Assembly (NCBI GenBank): GCA_023150295.1
Contig: JAKLLE010000029.1
Coordinates: forward strand, 1 to 41,746
DNA length: 41,746 nt
From: Giesbergeria sp.
Lineage (GTDB): Bacteria > Pseudomonadota > Gammaproteobacteria > Burkholderiales > Burkholderiaceae_C
Reading direction: 5' to 3'
This document shows, piece by piece, positions 18,134 through 26,790 of this stretch. The translations under genes were made by a program, and so were the position numbers. Numbering within the stretch: the first letter of the stretch is position 1; every line of letters begins with the position of its first letter. The notes beneath the pieces were generated by a model, which did not search any database, was not told the DNA's origin, and worked only from the letters and a program-made list of their open reading frames with translations.

Positions 18134-18493
18134 TCAATCCTGAATGCACTGCATGAGGTGCAACCCGTGGCGTTGCAGTGCCTGGGCCTGTGGGGCGATG
18201 CCCCAGCCGCTCCAGGCGCCGTCGTCCATTGTGGGGTGGCGTTGCATCGATAGACCCAGGCGCGCCAGCAGCGGCTCGCTGGCGTGCCAAGGCCCGTTGC
18301 CGTGGCGCAGTTCGATGAAGACCTGGCCGCGCTCGCGCGTGATGCACAGCGCAAAGGGCGCGCGTTCATACCGTGCCACGAAGTTGTCGAAGGCCTGGGG
18401 CTGGTCGGTGAATTCGACCAGGGCAAAGCCCCAATCGGCTTCCACGAAACCGAAGTGGCGGCGCAGGTCTTGCAGGCCAGGGGGCGGGGTCAT
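18134..18493 (-). CDS. Small cytoplasmic protein of unknown function, immunity-protein-like in size and layout
   Basis: The 119-residue protein has no signal peptide. Visible segments are LRRHFGFVEADWGFALVEFT, FALCITRERGQVFIELRHG and a C-terminal region rich in His and Gln. The pattern of an N-terminal 'FGF...GF' segment followed by a strand with ERGQV and charged residues recalls small hypothetical and polymorphic-toxin immunity families, but I recognise no named family. The start overlaps the stop of the secreted metalloprotease-TPM gene as ATGA. Tight coupling to a secreted hydrolase would suit an immunity, chaperone or regulator role, which is speculation. Confidence 0.6.
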   Translation of the reverse strand: MTPPPGLQDLRRHFGFVEADWGFALVEFTDQPQAFDNFVARYERAPFALCITRERGQVFIELRHGNGPWHASEPLLARLGLSMQRHPTMDDGAWSGWGIAPQAQALQRHGLHLMQCIQD

Positions 18494-20184
18494 TCGGTCA
18501 CGCTGTAGCTCAGCAGGTCGAGCGACTGCGTGTCCTTGGGGTTCCACGACAGGCCCGATGCGCGCGCGATCACGGTGTAGGTCTTGCCTTGCTCCATCTT
18601 GCCGCCGGGCATCAGCGATTCGGTGCGCGGGTCGATGTAGAGCATGGCCGTCAGGCCTTCCCTGCTGCGCATCAGCACGGCCTTCTGGCCGTTCTTGACC
18701 TTCACATCGTTGACCCATGCCGCCTTGTTGCCGGGCGGCGGGTTCAGGCTCTCTACCGTGCCCGAGAGGCGCACGATCTTGCGCCACACCTTGCTTTGCT
18801 GGGGCGGCAGGTTCTTGCCGGTTTCGGCCGCGTCCATCTTGAGGATGTCGCCCAAGGTGTTGTAGGCGATGGCCCAGTCGGAGCGGCGGGTGTCGCGGCG
18901 GATGTGGTCGGCCGCGAGCATCAGGTTTTCCGTCCAGCCGCCGCAGGCGCTCTTCTTCTTGCACAGGGGCCAGGCGGTCTTGATCCAGCGCTCCAGTTGC
19001 GCGGCCTTGTCGTGGCTGCCCATCTCCAGCCGCACGCCCGCGCCCAGCACGGCAGCGGCCTGGTTCTGCTCGGGCGCCACCACCAGCACAGCGCCGTTGC
19101 CCACATCGAGCTTGCCTACGCGCAGCTGGCGCATCATGGCGTGGGCGTAGTCCTCGGCGCTCTTGCCGTCCAGGTCCTTGACCAGCAGGGTCACGATTTC
19201 CACGCCCGTGGCCTGCGCGTGCTCGTACATCTGCTTCTCAAACTGGGCACGGATGGCCGGGCCCAGGATGCCGAACTCGTCGTAGATGAACTGCCCGCCC
19301 TTGGCGGGCAAGGCCTCGGCGTCGGCCTTGGGCATGACCTGGGCGACGGCGGCCGTGGCCACAGGGGCTGGCGCGGCGATGGCGGGGGCTGCTGCCGGGC
19401 TGGGCGCAGGTTTGGTTGCCTGCGGAGACGCTGCGGTGGTGGTTGCAGTGGTGGGGGCTGCCGGGGCCTGGGCGGTGGTCACCGGCTTGCCGCCCTGGCA
19501 TTGCGCTCCGCCGCCCTGCAGCTCGCAGGCCTCCTTCCAGCCCGCCTCGATGGCGGCCAGGCGCTTTTTGCGGCCGGGGTGGGTTTCGCCGTCCTTTTCG
19601 GGGATCAGCGTGGCAATGGCGCGCTGGGCGTCGGCCAGCGGCGCGCCCATTTTGTAGAGCACAAAGCCGCTGAACTTGTCGGACTCCAGCTCAATGGGCG
19701 GCTGGCTGCCGCCGGGCACGATGGTGTGGCCCGAGAGGTGGTGCCCGATCTCGTGCGCCATGATGCTCACGGGCGCCCAGTTGTTGGACTTGGTGGCTTC
19801 GATCACCTGGCCCATGAAGGCCGGGTTGTAGGCAATCACGCGGCGCGGTACCTGGTCAGGGCCTTGCATGATCACGGCGGCCGCGTTGGGCACCTTGCCT
19901 TCCACCACCACAAAGTTGGCGGGCAGACCGGTGTATTTCATGATCTCGGCCACCACCTGCTTGCCCGTGCCGCCGCCCTTGGACAGGTCGGGCGGCGAAA
20001 ACGCCAGCGGGCTGCCGTCATACGAGCAGGCCTGCAGCGTGGCGGCCAGCTCGGCCGTGAGCTGGGCGCGGCTGGGCTTGGTGCCTGTGCCCGCCACTTT
20101 TTGCGCCAGGGCCAGGCCCGTGCCGGCAAGGCCGATCAGGGCAGCGCAGGCAAATGCCACGGGACGAAGGTTGGGGTGCTTCAT
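18490..20184 (-). CDS. Secreted zinc metalloprotease fused to a TPM domain
   Basis: The 564-residue protein has four parts. A signal peptide is present (ACAALIGLAGTGLALAQ). A gluzincin-type protease domain spans about residues 40-220, with HEIGHH at 144-149 and a downstream acidic motif ELESDKFSGF at 165-174 as in M48-like enzymes. A Pro/Ala/Thr-rich linker follows (about 236-287), then a TPM domain (about 298-400: FIYDEFGILGP, ATGVEIVTLLVKDL, GNGAVLVVAPEQN), as in YgcG-like proteins and plant Psb32. The last 95 residues are beta-rich. Export to the periplasm or surface is expected. It heads five tightly coupled genes, 107 bases after a LuxR-type regulator. The protease-TPM combination in one chain is unusual to me. 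Confidence 0.8.
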   Translation of the reverse strand: MKHPNLRPVAFACAALIGLAGTGLALAQKVAGTGTKPSRAQLTAELAATLQACSYDGSPLAFSPPDLSKGGGTGKQVVAEIMKYTGLPANFVVVEGKVPNAAAVIMQGPDQVPRRVIAYNPAFMGQVIEATKSNNWAPVSIMAHEIGHHLSGHTIVPGGSQPPIELESDKFSGFVLYKMGAPLADAQRAIATLIPEKDGETHPGRKKRLAAIEAGWKEACELQGGGAQCQGGKPVTTAQAPAAPTTATTTAASPQATKPAPSPAAAPAIAAPAPVATAAVAQVMPKADAEALPAKGGQFIYDEFGILGPAIRAQFEKQMYEHAQATGVEIVTLLVKDLDGKSAEDYAHAMMRQLRVGKLDVGNGAVLVVAPEQNQAAAVLGAGVRLEMGSHDKAAQLERWIKTAWPLCKKKSACGGWTENLMLAADHIRRDTRRSDWAIAYNTLGDILKMDAAETGKNLPPQQSKVWRKIVRLSGTVESLNPPPGNKAAWVNDVKVKNGQKAVLMRSREGLTAMLYIDPRTESLMPGGKMEQGKTYTVIARASGLSWNPKDTQSLDLLSYSVTE

Positions 20185-20291
20185 GGGTGCTGGTTCCTCA
20201 GGTTGGATCGGTGAATTCAGTGGGCCGTGGCGTCGATACGGGCGCGCTCCAGGCCAGGCGCCGAAGGCGACTCAGGGGGGGTGTCCCATCG

Positions 20292-21449
20292 TCAATCGAC
20301 CAGGGCCGCCACACGCAGTACGCGCTGGGCCAGCTCGGCCTGGCCCCGGGTGCCGGTCTTGGCGTACAGGCTGGCGAGTTGGGTGCGCACGGTGGGCAGC
20401 TTCACGCCCTGGGTGTCGGCCATTTCGCGCGGCGTCATGCCCTGCAGCAGCAGGGGCAGCAGGGCGGCCTCGGCGGGCGTCAGGCCGTAGAGCGCGCCGC
20501 ACACGGGCATGGCGGCCTGGGCTTGGGGCAGGGTTTCGGGCACCAGTACGAATTGGATCAGCGCTGCCGGGCCGCCACGCAGCGGCGTGGCCAGGGCCAC
20601 CAGGGCCAGGCCACGCGGTGTGTGCAGACGCGCCGACACCGGTGTGCGCGTGCCCTGGCTGGCCGCGAGCAGGGGTGGCAGCGCTCCGTGGATGTCCGCC
20701 AGCAGCACCGGCGGGCGGGCCTGCCAGCCCGTGGCGTGGCGCAGCAGGATGCGGCATTCGTCTTCCACACCGAGCCAGGTGCGCGCATGGTCGTTGAGGT
20801 AGCGCAGCGTGCCTTGCAGATCCACATGCAGCAGGCCCAGCGGCAGTTGGTTCAGCGCGCGCTCCAGCGCTTGGGTGTGGCGCTGGGCCTGCTGCAGGCG
20901 GCGCTGCGCGCGCATCAGGCTGCGCACCCAGGGTGTGGCGGCGCGCAGCTGGGCGAACTGCGCAGGCGTGAATTCGGGCTGGCCCAGTTCGTTGTACAGC
21001 GCCAGCACATGCACCCCGACCTCGGGCGAGGCCTCGACGATGCTGTTGACCATGGCGTCGATGCCCAGGGGGCGCAGGTAGTCGGCGAAAAAACCGCTCT
21101 TGCGCAGGTCGCCGGTGCCGATGAGCTGCTGGCTCAGCGAGCCGCCGCGCGCCAGGGCCTGGTCGTGTTGGCGTTCCAGCGCTTCGCTCCAGGCGTCCTG
21201 CCCCTGGATCAGCGCGGCGTAGCGCTCCAGAAAGTCCTCGGGCATGCCCCACTGGTGGGCCGCCAGCGGGTCGCCCTCGCCGGGCAGGGGGCAGAACAGC
21301 ACCACCTTGTGGCTGCCCAGCGCCTGGCCCAGGTGGCGCAGCAGGCGCGGCACCATGCCGGGCTCGCCCACGGCCTCCAGGCTCTCGGCGATGAGGGCCT
21401 CGAAACGGGGGATGGCCAGGTGTTGTGCGTGCCAGTCCTTGTTGCTCAC
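20292..21449 (-). CDS. LuxR-type transcriptional regulator with N-terminal sensory region
   Basis: The product has 385 residues from GTG at 21449 (AAGGGA just upstream). The C-terminal LuxR helix-turn-helix is clear (ALYGLTPAEAALLPLLLQGM then TPREMADTQGVKLPTVRTQL). The N-terminal 300 residues hold a GAF/PAS-like region (YLNDHARTWLGVEDECRILL), suggesting ligand or redox sensing. No receiver-domain aspartate pattern is seen, so it is probably not a response regulator. The frame extends to 21548, but that would place the dyad at 21512-21531 inside the gene. It lies upstream of the metalloprotease operon in the same direction and downstream of the DUF3667 gene, whose promoter carries the same motif. 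Confidence 0.85.
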   Translation of the reverse strand: MSNKDWHAQHLAIPRFEALIAESLEAVGEPGMVPRLLRHLGQALGSHKVVLFCPLPGEGDPLAAHQWGMPEDFLERYAALIQGQDAWSEALERQHDQALARGGSLSQQLIGTGDLRKSGFFADYLRPLGIDAMVNSIVEASPEVGVHVLALYNELGQPEFTPAQFAQLRAATPWVRSLMRAQRRLQQAQRHTQALERALNQLPLGLLHVDLQGTLRYLNDHARTWLGVEDECRILLRHATGWQARPPVLLADIHGALPPLLAASQGTRTPVSARLHTPRGLALVALATPLRGGPAALIQFVLVPETLPQAQAAMPVCGALYGLTPAEAALLPLLLQGMTPREMADTQGVKLPTVRTQLASLYAKTGTRGQAELAQRVLRVAALVD

Positions 21450-21485
21450 TGCGTCCCTTCGTGTCGGTTGCGTCGAATGGGCTGG

Positions 21486-21534
21486 ATGGTAGGGGGGCAC
21501 CGCAGAGGGGACATCATCCAGGTGGATGATGGGG
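21486..21534 (-). promoter_or_regulatory. Promoter of the LuxR-type gene with dyad operator
   Basis: On the plus strand CATCATCCAGGTGGATGATG (21512-21531) has two perfect eight-base arms around AGGT and is followed by GGG. On the minus strand a -10-like TACCAT lies at 21491-21486, 20 bases after the dyad, which places the dyad near -42 for a class II activator. The same motif and the same TACCAT with a 21-base gap recur at 22375-22424. Confidence 0.5.
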
Positions 21535-21563
21535 CGGACTTTTCGCACGCCTTTTGCGGTTTC

Positions 21564-22376
21564 TTACATCCCCATCTGCCAGAGAACCAGTTCCACCACG
21601 CCCCGGGCGTAGAGCGTGGTGGCCTGCCACTTGAGCGCCGCGAACAGGCCGCCCGCCAGCAGCAGCCGCAGGCCATCGCGCCGCGTGTCCAGCGCAAAGA
21701 ACTGCCGCAGCGCCAGCATGAACCACAGGGCCTGCAGCGCCGTCATGTACCAGGGCGACCAGGCCTTGTGCCATTGCAGCAGGCCGGGGGACGGCGCCAG
21801 CACCAGGGGCAATTGGTTGACTATTTGCAGGGCAATGAACACGGCCTGGCAGTACAGCGCCAGTGCGAGCAGCTCGGTCGCGTTGTAGCCCAGGCGGCGG
21901 CGATACAGCAGCCAGGCCGTGGCATAGGCCGCCACCGCGCCCAGGGAGAAAGACCATTTGGAATACGCCGCAACCAGCGCGTACATGCGCGCGGCGGCTT
22001 CGCTGGGGAAGGCGGGGCGCAGGTAGTCGGTGTGGCCCAGCACGATCAGCAGGCAGCCAATGGCCAGGCACAGCAGCGTGAGTGGGTGCGGGTGGTCCTT
22101 GCGCCGACCGCGCACGTACTCGCGCGCCACGGTGCCGGGCTGGGGCAGCACGCGCAACGCGTTGCGCACCATGTCCCACTCAAACCAGCGAAAGCGCGCC
22201 CAGGCCTCCTTGCGCACCGTGGCCGTGCCCATGCGCCCGGCCTTCTTCTGCCCGCACTGGGCACAGTAAGGGCCGGTGAGCGGGGCGGTGCAGTTCAGGC
22301 ACTGGGAGGTGTCGAACAGGGTGTCGATGGCGGGGGGGATCACAGGGCGGCGGTGCAGCAAACGGTGGCCGCGCAT
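21564..22376 (-). CDS. DUF3667-family membrane protein with N-terminal zinc ribbon
   Basis: The product has up to 270 residues. Near the N-terminus are two Cys-x2-Cys pairs (CLNCTAPLTGPYCAQCGQK), the zinc ribbon of DUF3667 proteins. About five hydrophobic helices follow, including PLTLLCLAIGCLLIVLGH, FSLGAVAAYATAWLLY and ELLALALYCQAVFIALQIV. Function in the family is unknown. ATG at 22376 is the longest start but overlaps a -10-like TACCAT; GTG at 22343 would leave a normal leader and keeps the zinc ribbon. The next gene downstream is the LuxR-type regulator. Confidence 0.8.
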   Translation of the reverse strand: MRGHRLLHRRPVIPPAIDTLFDTSQCLNCTAPLTGPYCAQCGQKKAGRMGTATVRKEAWARFRWFEWDMVRNALRVLPQPGTVAREYVRGRRKDHPHPLTLLCLAIGCLLIVLGHTDYLRPAFPSEAAARMYALVAAYSKWSFSLGAVAAYATAWLLYRRRLGYNATELLALALYCQAVFIALQIVNQLPLVLAPSPGLLQWHKAWSPWYMTALQALWFMLALRQFFALDTRRDGLRLLLAGGLFAALKWQATTLYARGVVELVLWQMGM

Positions 22377-22424
22377 GGTACGCCCGCAGGCCCGGGCCTG
22401 GCATCGTTCAGATGGATGACGGGG
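22375..22424 (-). promoter_or_regulatory. Promoter of the DUF3667 gene with the same dyad motif as the LuxR gene
   Basis: On the plus strand CATCGTTCAGATGGATGACG (22402-22421), followed by GGG, differs at only four of 20 positions from the dyad before the LuxR gene. The -10-like TACCAT on the minus strand lies at 22380-22375, with a gap of 21 bases against 20 at the other promoter. The likely reader is the adjacent LuxR-type protein, by inference. Confidence 0.5.
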
Positions 22425-22450
22425 ATGTGGGTTGGGGGGCTGAGTGCGCT

Positions 22451-22547
22451 ATTGATTTAATAGCTGCTTGCGCTTGCCAGACAATATTTTCAAAATCAAA
22501 TGATGCTGAATGTTCCTGCTGATAAGCGCCTCCAGCTATCAAATCAG
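22451..22547. repeat. GATAGC/GCGCTT dispersed repeat, copy 3: two half-elements in inverted orientation
   Basis: A left half (TGATTTAATAGCTGCTTGCG then CTT) and a right half (AAGCGCCTCCAGCTATCAAA then TCA) face each other across about 50 AT-rich bases. The arms are about 23 bases with a few mismatches and would form a long hairpin. The right half ends within a few bases of the Lrp-type gene's stop codon at 22553. Confidence 0.65.
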
Positions 22548-22552
22548 TAGTG

Positions 22553-23038
22553 TCAATGGCTCCCCTGCCGCAGATGGCTCAGCGGCAGCGCCCCGCTGGC
22601 CTTGACCTCGCCCAGCGAGAAGCTGGTGTGCATGTCCTTGACGTTGGGCAGGTGCAGCAGCACGTCGCGCGCGAACTGCGAGAAGCTGTCCAGGTCGCGC
22701 GCCACCACCTGCAGCTCAAAGGTGCCGGTGCCGCTGATGTAGTGGCACGACACCACTTCGGGGATCTTGCGGATCGCCTCTTCCATAGTCTGCGTGAGGC
22801 CGCCGGTGTTGCGGTCGGCGTCCAGGCGCACAAAGGCCAGCACGCCCAGGCCGATCTTGCGCCGGTCGATCTCGGCGCGGTAGCCCTTGATGAAGCCGGC
22901 CTCCTCCAGCGCACGCACACGGCGCCAGCAGGGCGCGGCCGAGAGGCCCACGCGCTGGGCCAGTTCAGCGTTGGTCAGGCGCGCGTCGGATTGCAGTTCC
23001 TGCAGGATGGCCAGGTCGAATTTGTCCAGATTGTTCAA
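22553..23038 (-). CDS. Lrp/AsnC-family transcriptional regulator
   Basis: The protein has about 161 residues. An N-terminal helix-turn-helix (LDKFDLAILQELQSDARLTN, then LAQRVGLSAAPCWRRVRALE) precedes the RAM/effector domain (GLGVLAFVRLDADRNTG, FELQVVARDLDSFSQF). No ATG start is available in frame. TTG at 23038 has GGCGGA just upstream and starts at the usual place for the family; TTG at 23071 would add 11 residues without a ribosome site. It is transcribed divergently from indolepyruvate ferredoxin oxidoreductase, an amino-acid catabolic enzyme, so it probably controls that gene in response to an amino acid. Confidence 0.9.
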   Translation of the reverse strand: MNNLDKFDLAILQELQSDARLTNAELAQRVGLSAAPCWRRVRALEEAGFIKGYRAEIDRRKIGLGVLAFVRLDADRNTGGLTQTMEEAIRKIPEVVSCHYISGTGTFELQVVARDLDSFSQFARDVLLHLPNVKDMHTSFSLGEVKASGALPLSHLRQGSH

Positions 23039-23223
23039 AATTTCCGCCAGTTGAGAAAGAACCTTTCGCAAGATAGCGTAAACACGGCATCAAAAGCAAA
23101 CACCTATCGGCGACAAGGGCATACACTCCTCTGCACACTGGAGCCGCCACCCTAAACGGCTGGCAGGCGCCCTGCACCGCCCCACAAGACGCGGCCCCAC
23201 GAACCCGCGAAGGAGACAACACG

Positions 23224-26200
23224 ATGAACGCACCCTTGCCCGAATCCATCCGCAAGGCCCTGGAAACCGTTACTTTGGAAGACAAGTACACCCTGGGCGA
23301 AGGCCGTGCCTTCATGAGCGGTGTACAGGCCCTGGTGCGCCTGCCCATGCTGCAGCGCCAGCGCGATGCGGCAGCAGGCCTGAACACTGCGGGCTTCATC
23401 AGCGGCTACCGCGGCAGCCCGCTGGGCACCTACGACCAGGCGCTGTGGGCTGCGAAGAAGCACCTGGCCGAGAACCACATCGTCTTTCAGCCCGGCGTGA
23501 ACGAGGAACTGGGCGCCACGGCCGTGTGGGGCACGCAGCAGCTCGACCTGTACCCCGACAAGAAAAAGTACGACGGTGTGTTCGGCATCTGGTATGGCAA
23601 GGGGCCAGGCGTGGACCGCTGCTCGGACGTGTTCAAGCACGCCAACATGGCGGGTACGGCCAAGCACGGCGGCGTGATCGCCATTGCGGGCGACGACCAC
23701 ATCAGCAAGAGCAGCACGGCCGCGCACCAGAGCGACCACATCTTCAAGGCCTGCGGCACGCCGGTGTTCTTCCCCAGCAGCGTGCAAGAGATTCTGGACA
23801 TGGGCTTGCACGCCTTTGCCATGAGCCGTTTTTCGGGCGTGTGGTCGGGCATGAAGACCATCCAGGAGGTGGTGGAGTCCTCCAGCAGCATCAGCATCGA
23901 CCCGGACCGCGTGAAGATCGTCCTGCCCGAGGACTTTGCCATGCCTCCCGGCGGCCTGCACATCCGCTGGCCCGACGCGCCGCTGGAGCAGGAGGCGCGC
24001 CTGATGGACTACAAGTGGTACGCCGCCCTGGCCTATGTGCGGGCCAACAGGCTCAACTACAACGTCATCGAAGGGCCGCACGACCGCTTCGGCATCATCG
24101 CCAGCGGCAAGGCCTACAACGATACGCGCCAGGCGCTCATCGACCTGGGGCTGGATGACGACACCTGCCGTCAGCTGGGCATTCGCGTGCACAAGGTCAA
24201 CGTGGTGTGGCCGCTGGAAGCCACCATCACGCGCGACTTTGCGCAGGGCCTGCAAGAGATTCTGGTGGTGGAAGAAAAGCGCCAGGTCATCGAATACCAG
24301 CTCAAGGAGGAGCTGTACAACTGGCGCGCCGACGTGCGCCCCAACGTGCTGGGCAAGTTCGACGAGCCCGAGGGCGACGCCACCGGCGGCGAGTGGAGCA
24401 TGCCCAACCCCAGCCAAAACTGGCTGCTGCGCGCCAAGGCCGACCTCACGCCCGCCCTCATTGCCAAGGCCATTGCCAAGCGCCTGAAAAAGCTGGGCGT
24501 GCCCAGTGACACCGTGGCCCGCATGGATGCGCGCCTGGCCATCATCGAAGCGCGCGAGCGTGCCATGGTGCAGGCCTCGAGCGACACCGGCGAGCGCACG
24601 CCCTGGTTCTGCAGCGGTTGCCCGCACAACACCAGCACGCGCGTGCCCGAGGGCTCGCGCGCCGTGGCCGGTATCGGCTGCCACTACATGACGGTGTGGA
24701 TGGACCGCAGCACCTCGACCTTCACGCAGATGGGCGGCGAGGGTGTGTCGTGGGTGGGGCAGTTCCCGTTCACCCAGGACAAGCATGTGTTCGCCAACCT
24801 GGGCGACGGCACCTACTTCCACAGTGGCCTGCTGGCCATCCGCCAGAGCATTGCTGCGGGCGTGAACATCACCTACAAGATCCTCTACAACGACGCCGTC
24901 GCCATGACCGGCGGACAGACGGTGGGCGAGCGGCCCGAGGGCCACAGCGTGCTGCAGATCATGAACAGCGTGCTGTCCGAGGGCGTGGTCAAGCTGGTCA
25001 TCGTGACCGACGAGCCCCAGAAGTACGACGGCGCGCCGCTGGCCGCTGGCGTGACCGTGCACCACCGCGATGAGCTCGACCGCATTCAACGCGAGCTGCG
25101 CGAAATCGCGGGCTGCACGGCGCTGATCTACGACCAGACCTGTGCCACCGAAAAGCGCCGCCGCCGCAAGCGCGGCAAGCTCGCCACGCCCGACAAGACC
25201 GTGGTCATCAACGAGCTGGTGTGCGAGGGCTGCGGCGACTGCTCGGTAAAGTCCAACTGCCTGAGCGTGGAGCCGGTGGAAACGCCCTTTGGCCGCAAGC
25301 GCCGCATCAACCAAAGCACCTGCAACAAAGACTACTCTTGCGTCAACGGCTTCTGCCCGAGCTTCGTCACCATCGAGGGCGGTCAACTGAAGAAGCCCAA
25401 GAAGGAGAAGAAGGGCGACCTCACTGCGCTGCCCTCCATTCCTGAGCCGGTGCTGCCTGCGGCCGAGCAGGCCTGGGGCATTGTGGTAGGCGGCGTGGGG
25501 GGCACGGGTGTCATCACCATTGGCTCGCTGCTGGGCATGGCCGCGCACCTGGACGGCAAGGGCGTGGTCACGCAGGACGCGGGTGGCCTGGCGCAAAAGG
25601 GCGGCGCCACCTGGAGCCACATCCAGATTGCCCAGCGGCCCGAGGCCATCTACACCACCAAGGTCGATACGGCCAAGGCCGACCTGGTGATTGGCTGCGA
25701 CTCCATCGTCGCCGCCAACAAGGCCACGCTGGCCGTGATGCAGCCGGGCCGCACCTTTGTGGCGCTCAACACGCATGGCACACCCACGGCGACCTTTGTG
25801 CGCAACCCCGATTGGCAGTTTCCCACCGGCCACTGCGAAAGCGCCATCGCCGCCGCTGTGGGCGCAGAGCTGGTGGGCAGCTTCGATGCCGAGCAGGTGG
25901 CCGTGCAACTGCTGGGCGACAGCATTTACACCAACCCCCTGATGCTGGGCTACGCCTGGCAAAAAGGCCGCGTTCCGCTCACCCACGCATCGCTGATGCG
26001 CGCCATGGAGTTGAACGGGGTGCAGGTCGAGAACAACAAGGCCGCGTTCGAGTGGGGCCGCCGCTGCGCACACGACCTGGCCGCGGTGCAGGCACTGTTC
26101 CAGGCGGCGCAGGTCATCCAGCTGGTGCGCAAGCCCACGCTGGCCGATATGGTCGCGCAGCGGGTGGAGTTCCTCACCGGCTACCAGAATGCCGCCTATG

Positions 26201-26790
26201 CGGCACAGTACCAGGCCTTCGTACACAAGGTGCAGGCCGCCGAGGCTCCGCTGGGCAGCAGCACGCGCCTGGCCGAGGCGGTGGCGCGCTACCTGTTCAA
26301 GCTCATGGCCTACAAGGACGAGTACGAAGTGGCACGCCTGCACACCGACAAGGCTTTCACCGACAAGATTGCGGCGCAGTTTGAGGGCGACTACAAGCTG
26401 GTGCACCACCTGGCCCCCCCGCTGCTGGCGCAGCGCAACAGCAAGGGCGAGCTGGTCAAACGCCCCTTCGGCCCCTGGGTGCGCAAGGCCTTCGGCCTGC
26501 TGGCCCGCATGAAGGGTCTGCGCGGCACGGCCTTCGACATCTTTGGCAAGACCGAAGAGCGGCGCACCGAGCGCGCCCTGATCCAGCAGTACCGTGCCTG
26601 CGTGGAGGAACTGCTCCAGGGCCTCACGCCCGAGCGCCTGGCCCTGGCGGTGCAGATTGCCAGCATTCCCGAGGACATCCGGGGCTACGGCCATGTGAAG
26701 GAACGCCACCTGGAGGCAGCCCGTGCCCGCTGGGATGCGCTCATGTCCCAGTGGCGCAGCGGTGCGCCGAAGCAGTACCAGGCGGCGTAA
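23224..26790 (+). CDS. Indolepyruvate ferredoxin oxidoreductase, fused alpha-beta-gamma form
   Basis: The 1188-residue cytoplasmic enzyme oxidatively decarboxylates aryl pyruvates from aromatic amino acids to acyl-CoA, passing electrons to ferredoxin. Order of domains: an N-terminal pyrimidine-binding region (FISGYRGSPLGTYDQALW), a thiamine-diphosphate region (QFPFTQDKHVFANLGDGTYF, about residue 520), an iron-sulfur stretch with CEGCGDCSVKSNC and CNKDYSCVNGFCPSF (about 666-720), a 2-oxoacid:acceptor oxidoreductase domain (GVGGTGVITIGSLLGMAAHL, about 757) and a C-terminal DUF6537-like tail. ATG at 23224 has GAAGGAGA upstream. Fusion into one chain is usual in proteobacteria. The divergent Lrp-type gene is its likely regulator. 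Confidence 0.93.
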   Translation: MNAPLPESIRKALETVTLEDKYTLGEGRAFMSGVQALVRLPMLQRQRDAAAGLNTAGFISGYRGSPLGTYDQALWAAKKHLAENHIVFQPGVNEELGATAVWGTQQLDLYPDKKKYDGVFGIWYGKGPGVDRCSDVFKHANMAGTAKHGGVIAIAGDDHISKSSTAAHQSDHIFKACGTPVFFPSSVQEILDMGLHAFAMSRFSGVWSGMKTIQEVVESSSSISIDPDRVKIVLPEDFAMPPGGLHIRWPDAPLEQEARLMDYKWYAALAYVRANRLNYNVIEGPHDRFGIIASGKAYNDTRQALIDLGLDDDTCRQLGIRVHKVNVVWPLEATITRDFAQGLQEILVVEEKRQVIEYQLKEELYNWRADVRPNVLGKFDEPEGDATGGEWSMPNPSQNWLLRAKADLTPALIAKAIAKRLKKLGVPSDTVARMDARLAIIEARERAMVQASSDTGERTPWFCSGCPHNTSTRVPEGSRAVAGIGCHYMTVWMDRSTSTFTQMGGEGVSWVGQFPFTQDKHVFANLGDGTYFHSGLLAIRQSIAAGVNITYKILYNDAVAMTGGQTVGERPEGHSVLQIMNSVLSEGVVKLVIVTDEPQKYDGAPLAAGVTVHHRDELDRIQRELREIAGCTALIYDQTCATEKRRRRKRGKLATPDKTVVINELVCEGCGDCSVKSNCLSVEPVETPFGRKRRINQSTCNKDYSCVNGFCPSFVTIEGGQLKKPKKEKKGDLTALPSIPEPVLPAAEQAWGIVVGGVGGTGVITIGSLLGMAAHLDGKGVVTQDAGGLAQKGGATWSHIQIAQRPEAIYTTKVDTAKADLVIGCDSIVAANKATLAVMQPGRTFVALNTHGTPTATFVRNPDWQFPTGHCESAIAAAVGAELVGSFDAEQVAVQLLGDSIYTNPLMLGYAWQKGRVPLTHASLMRAMELNGVQVENNKAAFEWGRRCAHDLAAVQALFQAAQVIQLVRKPTLADMVAQRVEFLTGYQNAAYAAQYQAFVHKVQAAEAPLGSSTRLAEAVARYLFKLMAYKDEYEVARLHTDKAFTDKIAAQFEGDYKLVHHLAPPLLAQRNSKGELVKRPFGPWVRKAFGLLARMKGLRGTAFDIFGKTEERRTERALIQQYRACVEELLQGLTPERLALAVQIASIPEDIRGYGHVKERHLEAARARWDALMSQWRSGAPKQYQAA

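Follow-up and report, generated by a model that had tools for sequence, protein, structure and literature searches.

The lux box of Vibrio fischeri LuxR is located at about -42.5, and it is here that class II LuxR activators have their lux box. VqmA and EL222 each combine a PAS-fold sensor with a LuxR HTH. According to one published account (PMC4338825), an autoinducer-binding domain is present in LuxR solos. LuxR1, the regulator analyzed in this work, resembles the solos in being an orphan LuxR-type regulator, and differs from them, as far as that account describes them, in that no autoinducer-binding domain was matched.

The gene luxR1 was identified in a 41,746-nucleotide stretch of Giesbergeria sp. 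DNA (GenBank assembly GCA_023150295.1, contig JAKLLE010000029.1), hereafter the window, beside a gene encoding a DUF3667 protein (Table 1). The locus shares with the V. fischeri LuxR system a 20-bp dyad at the same predicted position, a LuxR-type HTH and a neighbouring target gene. Unlike V. fischeri LuxR, LuxR1 matches PAS models and no autoinducer-binding domain, and activation is here only predicted; the dyad sequence of the V. fischeri lux box also differs from that of LuxR1. VqmA (of Vibrio cholerae and phage VP882) and EL222 were the top PDB matches in a Foldseek search with the LuxR1 structure model, which is poor (mean pLDDT of 60.3). In comparison with VqmA, LuxR1 has an extra N-terminal region (the TM-score on the query was only 0.22), and its predicted target is the DUF3667 gene and not a small RNA gene. 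With the EL222-type LOV-HTH regulators it would have in common a putative PAS-fold sensor combined with a LuxR HTH, the Foldseek match having been obtained with a low-confidence model. Within the literature searched (titles and the beginnings of abstracts, with most subscription journals outside), no description of a LuxR1/DUF3667 circuit and no paper joining DUF3667 and LuxR were found, and DUF3667 was seldom named.

Table 1. Coordinates of the genes and predicted regulatory elements of the luxR1/DUF3667 locus in the window.
Feature	Position	Strand	Remarks
TPM-domain/M48-peptidase-like gene, downstream of luxR1	18490..20184	-	Pfam
luxR1, 385-aa PAS + LuxR/GerE-type one-component regulator	20292..21449	-	starts with GTG; AAGGGA lies before it
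Predicted -10 hexamer TACCAT of luxR1	21486..21491	-	gap of 20 to the dyad; TACCAT/TACGAT at a gap of 20/21 in 17/17 loci
Putative operator dyad of luxR1, CATCATCCACCTGGATGATG	21512..21531	-	9/9 arm pairs; predicted at -52 to -33
DUF3667 gene, from the probable GTG start	21564..22343	-	Pfam DUF3667, 8.6e-7; first ATG of the ORF at 22376
Predicted -10 hexamer TACCAT of the DUF3667 gene	22375..22380	-	gap of 21; overlaps the first ATG of the ORF
Putative operator dyad of the DUF3667 gene, CGTCATCCATCTGAACGATG	22402..22421	-	6/9 arm pairs; predicted at -53 to -34

The domain composition of LuxR1 was analyzed in the window protein and in its orthologues. In the window protein, the Pfam PAS_8 and GerE models both scored below their cut-offs, though GerE, marking the C-terminal LuxR-type HTH, was matched in 15/17 orthologues at E ≤ 0.01 and PAS_8 in 12/17 at the same threshold. 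Moreover, a profile built from the 17 LuxR1 orthologues matched the DevR/DosR HTH (E = 0.00094). For the LuxR1 protein of G303, Pfam gave no match at E ≤ 0.05, GerE included. None of the 17 members matched an autoinducer-binding domain at E ≤ 0.01 (Pfam), and LuxR1 is therefore not classified as a quorum-sensing LuxR. In all 17 loci, the gene next to luxR1 on its downstream side gives a match to the TPM/M48 gene (with partial query coverage in six of them), and this gene may be co-transcribed with luxR1.

When read on the forward strand, the two window dyads, CATCATCCAGGTGGATGATG (21512-21531) and CATCGTTCAGATGGATGACG (22402-22421), are identical at 16/20 positions and both continue with GGG. 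The sequence-only reading had reported these two sites, this identity, the GGG, and a TACCAT hexamer on the minus strand at a distance of 20 or 21 bases from each of them, and all of these details were verified; the GGG, present at both window sites, is not generally kept in relatives. In the further analyses, a dyad followed, after a gap of 20 or 21 bases, by a TANNNT hexamer was treated as one composite element.

For the comparative analysis, 17 luxR1 loci were used, i.e., that of the window, 12 named loci and those of four further genomes, with duplicate copies of the same assemblies merged. The luxR1 gene is rare: it was found in 7/399 genomes of the family, in 12/47 of the genus of G235, in 1/29 and 1/5 of two further genera, and in 2/26 of the window's genus, the window's own genome included. 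The DUF3667 gene is located directly upstream of luxR1 in 16/17 loci; within the 4.1-kb locus of G303 no DUF3667 gene is present. The composite precedes luxR1 in all 17 loci (0-2 dyad mismatches, TACCAT or TACGAT) and the DUF3667 gene in 14 of the 15 loci that could be judged, and as the loci share ancestry and the patterns were built from them, these counts are neither independent nor blind. The hexamers of the DUF3667 promoters are TAC(C/G)AT in 12/14 cases, TACATT in soli and TAGCGT in G064. In G330, the 1.5 kb preceding the DUF3667 gene contain no composite other than that of luxR2, a second LuxR-type gene described below. The locus of PMG206 (L060) was left out of the DUF3667 count, its contig starting 52 bases before the homology; a dyad-like sequence, CATCGTTCAGGTGAACGACG, lies at about positions 35-55 of L060, just before the DUF3667 homology at the contig end.

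Altogether, 39 promoters were picked by hand, the hexamer nearest to TACCAT being chosen at gaps of 19-22, and in all of them the gap was 20 or 21. The dyad carries 1.52 bits per column in this set, compared with 0.33 in the 15-base flank preceding it and 0.40 in the 15-base flank that follows. An operator-promoter predicted to be common to luxR1 and the DUF3667 gene is strongly supported, since the element is conserved in orthologues and the full composite is rare elsewhere.

If TANNNT is taken as the -10 element (placed at -12 to -7), the transcription starts would fall at 21479 for luxR1 and at 22368 for the DUF3667 gene, and the dyad centres at about -42.5 and -43.5, in agreement with the value near -42 given in the sequence-only reading. 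The -35 regions are weak: compared with TTGACA at spacers of 16-18, none of the 39 promoters reached 5/6 or more, while 16 matched at 4/6, 15 at 3/6 and 8 at 2/6. A scan of 20100-22600 for consensus promoters gave none, which is little informative, as only 0.1 would be expected by chance. A fixed distance between the operator and a -10-like element together with a weak -35 region, as expected of class II promoters, was thus found in the 39 promoters, and the predicted position and the weak -35 regions fit class II activation by a LuxR-type protein.

The mechanism suggested in the sequence-only reading, i.e., a LuxR-type protein activating its own gene and the DUF3667 gene, is plausible, and it could operate as follows. 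The PAS and N-terminal regions of LuxR1 would sense a signal and gate the dimer, which would occupy the 20-bp dyad beside the TANNNT -10 element and the weak -35 region. In the manner of a class II activator, the bound protein would then recruit the polymerase and drive both luxR1 (positive autoregulation) and the gene of the DUF3667 membrane protein. In relatives with luxR2, a like operator before that gene would place two regulators on one set of sites. We consider it rather probable that LuxR1 binds the dyads and acts as a class II activator of itself and of the DUF3667 gene. Among the points that count against LuxR1 as the activator are the exception of G330, the imperfect DUF3667 dyad of the window, the sub-cut-off GerE match and the poor structure model.

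The same dyads could alternatively serve LuxR1 (or luxR2, where present) as a repressor, which would block the polymerase and result in negative autoregulation and co-repression of the DUF3667 gene. Autorepression is common among local regulators, the dyad overlaps the expected -35 region, and 16 of the 39 promoters have a 4/6 match to TTGACA there. Nevertheless, repression appears unlikely, and activation is favoured: the promoters look as if they needed help, because no -35 sequence is better than 4/6, and the gap of 20 or 21 bases throughout the 39 promoters suggests contact with the polymerase.

The predicted promoter bears also on the start codon of the DUF3667 gene. The first ATG of its ORF (22376-22374) overlaps the TACCAT hexamer, a point that the sequence-only reading does not mention, and lies upstream of the predicted transcription start. 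In all 14 DUF3667 promoters, an in-frame start codon is present 21-44 bases past the predicted transcription start, as expected of a true promoter; this codon is GTG in 12/14 and ATG (G064) or TTG (G458) in the remaining two, while the hexamer-overlapping ATG is in frame in only 4/14. In CCbin31, a stop codon precedes the GTG, which rules out an earlier start there. The homology between DUF3667 proteins begins at residues 11-18 in 14/15 relatives, with Acidovorax sp. 210-6 aligning from residue 1. It is therefore likely that GTG 22343, and not ATG 22376, is the start codon, given that the ATG overlaps the -10 hexamer and that 12/14 promoters are followed by an in-frame GTG. The GTG agrees also with the predicted transcription start.

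The window protein is assigned to DUF3667 (PF12412) with a score of 28.8 bits (gathering cut-off of 27), and a fragment of its radicis orthologue reached 25.6 bits, just under this cut-off. The protein carries an N-terminal CxxC...CxxC motif, whose cysteines are conserved. In its structure model (mean pLDDT of 67.7), long helices are present, which come after this motif and are likely transmembrane; when the model was used in a fold search of the PDB, nothing was matched at E ≤ 0.001.

The sequence-only reading had proposed a two-gene regulatory unit. This describes well the window's own genome, where no third dyad occurs at ≤1 mismatch, and it has to be extended for nine relatives, in which a third such promoter precedes luxR2, a further gene of the LuxR type with 28-31% identity to luxR1. 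In 8/17 loci luxR2 points away from the DUF3667 gene, with the same build of the promoter, and in the ninth luxR2 genome, G471, it is located on another contig. A search of 47 genomes, i.e., 17 with luxR1 and 30 without it (22 of the 35 luxR1-negative genomes of G235's genus and 8 of the window's genus), revealed luxR2 (≥73% identity to the query) in nine, all of them with luxR1 (9/17), and in 0/30 of those without luxR1. The composite was present at all nine luxR2 promoters, with 0, 0, 1, 1, 1, 2, 3, 3 and 4 dyad mismatches, the weak dyads being those of kalamii and NB1 (3 mismatches each) and facilis (4). In the genome of the window and in Acidovorax sp. 210-6 (G023), luxR2 was not found and both operators are kept; because the operators persist in genomes without luxR2, luxR1 is likely the regulator where luxR2 is missing. 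The one LuxR2 protein tested with Pfam gave PAS matches only, with no GerE at E ≤ 0.05.

A further group, luxR3, is 59-64% identical to luxR2 and is present in G134, G477, G303 and, as a second copy, in G452; the one LuxR3 protein tested had no Pfam match at E ≤ 0.05. Upstream of luxR3 there is no dyad of the luxR1 type; instead, ATCGG(T/C)CACCTG(A/G)CCGAT was found in 4/4 cases, with no TANNNT at a gap of 20 or 21 on the luxR3 side (by eye). The recognition-helix region reads GVKLPTVRTQL in LuxR1 of the window (TVRSQL in several orthologues), ITTVRTQL or ISTVRTQM in two LuxR2 proteins, and IRTVRTQM in LuxR3 (IRTARTQM in G303; four genes). The helix core TVR(T/S)Q is common to luxR1 and luxR2, as is the operator, while the luxR3 clade has an Arg just before this core and a changed dyad. 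The changed residue and the changed dyad bases may correspond to each other, which, as a single evolutionary change, is only a lead.

The luxR3 dyad of L157, L158 and L162 (G134, G477 and G452, respectively) is flanked by luxR3 on one side and by a divergent gene on the other. The open frames of the latter are 981, 985 and 967 aa long; its product looks Kelch-like in L157 and L162 (by eye) and seems, by coordinates, to end in an IPTL-CTERM motif. On the side of this divergent gene, AAGAAT is placed about 21 bases from the dyad (by eye). In L162, a second palindrome-like sequence, TATTCCCAGAGGAATA, occurs about 50 bases beyond the luxR3 dyad, and related sequences are present in L157-L159.

A more elaborate model, which we put forward tentatively, would have two diverged PAS-LuxR paralogues acting on one operator (by cross-regulation or as mixed dimers) in a closed and private circuit with a single membrane-protein target, a one-regulator version of this circuit where luxR2 is missing, and luxR3 moved to a new dyad with one change of a helix residue.

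Specificity of the element was further analyzed in the 399 genomes of the family. The strict composite (CATCNTYCANNTGRAYGATG-N20/21-TACNAT) was found at eight places in five genomes; all eight are luxR1 or DUF3667 promoters, all five genomes are among the seven luxR1 carriers, and a reversed-pattern control gave no match in the 399 genomes. The two carriers missed by the strict pattern were G064 (one dyad mismatch) and G303 (two). This result marks the predicted element as a private site and is not an independent association, because promoters travel with their genes. The dyad without the hexamer was rejected as a luxR1 marker: at ≤2 mismatches on the forward strand, it occurred 8-21 times per genome among 15 luxR1 carriers and 10-13 times among five non-carriers, which does not separate the two groups. 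A dyad-like site at L050:9081 was discounted, as it lies inside a coding frame, like its sic0104 counterpart. Twenty LuxR homologues that are only distantly related (22-42% identity) were scanned in their upstream regions, and none had the composite. Other palindromes were noted upstream of such homologues in L008, L014, L017 and L022; in L022, the perfect palindrome CATACCGCAATTGCGGTATG lies directly upstream of the homologue and is a possible operator of another paralogue.

These data bear on a second alternative, according to which an unlinked transcription factor would bind the dyads, luxR1 being merely one of its targets. Binding by LuxR1 is only predicted, and dyads at ≤2 mismatches are found also in genomes without luxR1; against this stand the confinement of the strict composite to luxR1 and DUF3667 promoters in the 399 genomes, the lack of a third close dyad in the window's genome, and the dyad of the luxR3 clade, which differs together with a helix residue. 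We therefore regard an unlinked factor as improbable.

In the window, a pattern derived from the two sites gave 11 matches at ≤3 mismatches (four of them being these two sites on both strands), in comparison with a mean of 1.0 match in 100 shuffles, a test that is partly circular, as the pattern was drawn from the sites themselves. The composite (dyad at ≤1 mismatch, gap of 20 or 21, TACSAT) occurred twice in the window, and 200 first-order Markov windows contained no copy of it, even with ≤3 dyad mismatches allowed. In the whole genome (forward strand), 76 places matched the relaxed dyad at ≤3 mismatches and, at ≤1 mismatch, only the two window sites; the composite was absent from 18 other loci of this genome obtained in the searches. 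Hence, although 16/20 matches between two copies are possible in GC-rich DNA, chance or a mobile repeat as the source of the similarity can be practically dismissed, given the empty simulated windows, the lack of a third close copy in the genome and the conservation of the dyad, but not of its flanks, across the 17 loci, and the same data bear out the opinion in the sequence-only reading that the similarity is unlikely by chance.

In five loci (L053, L054, L056, L059 and L044), an IPTL-CTERM protein is encoded between luxR2 and the DUF3667 gene; TIGR04174 matched the two proteins tested, and all five by coordinates. The radicis protein contains leucine-rich repeats (Pfam), and three others look alike by eye. 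A link between IPTL-CTERM proteins and luxR1 was rejected, as they are present in 10/17 genomes with luxR1 and in 18/30 without it, i.e., with no association. In the window, the region beside the locus (22553-26790) contains a divergent pair consisting of a gene for an Lrp/AsnC-type regulator and a 1188-aa ORF, which presumably encodes a protein resembling indolepyruvate ferredoxin oxidoreductase; in several relatives, luxR2 is located on this side instead.

Autoregulation by a LuxR-type protein together with control of a neighbouring target is a familiar arrangement, of which the circuit predicted here for Acidovorax-type bacteria is a new example and, as such, a fairly ordinary local one. 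What it comprises is a predicted operator-promoter that is conserved, private and common to luxR1, the DUF3667 gene and, in relatives, luxR2. The DUF3667 family thereby gains a candidate regulator and a candidate promoter, and a putative operator with its natural variants is supplied for a family of LuxR-type proteins. If the tentative model of diverged paralogues is true, the shift of the luxR3 dyad together with the helix residue would offer a readable code of protein-DNA specificity for this uncharacterised family.
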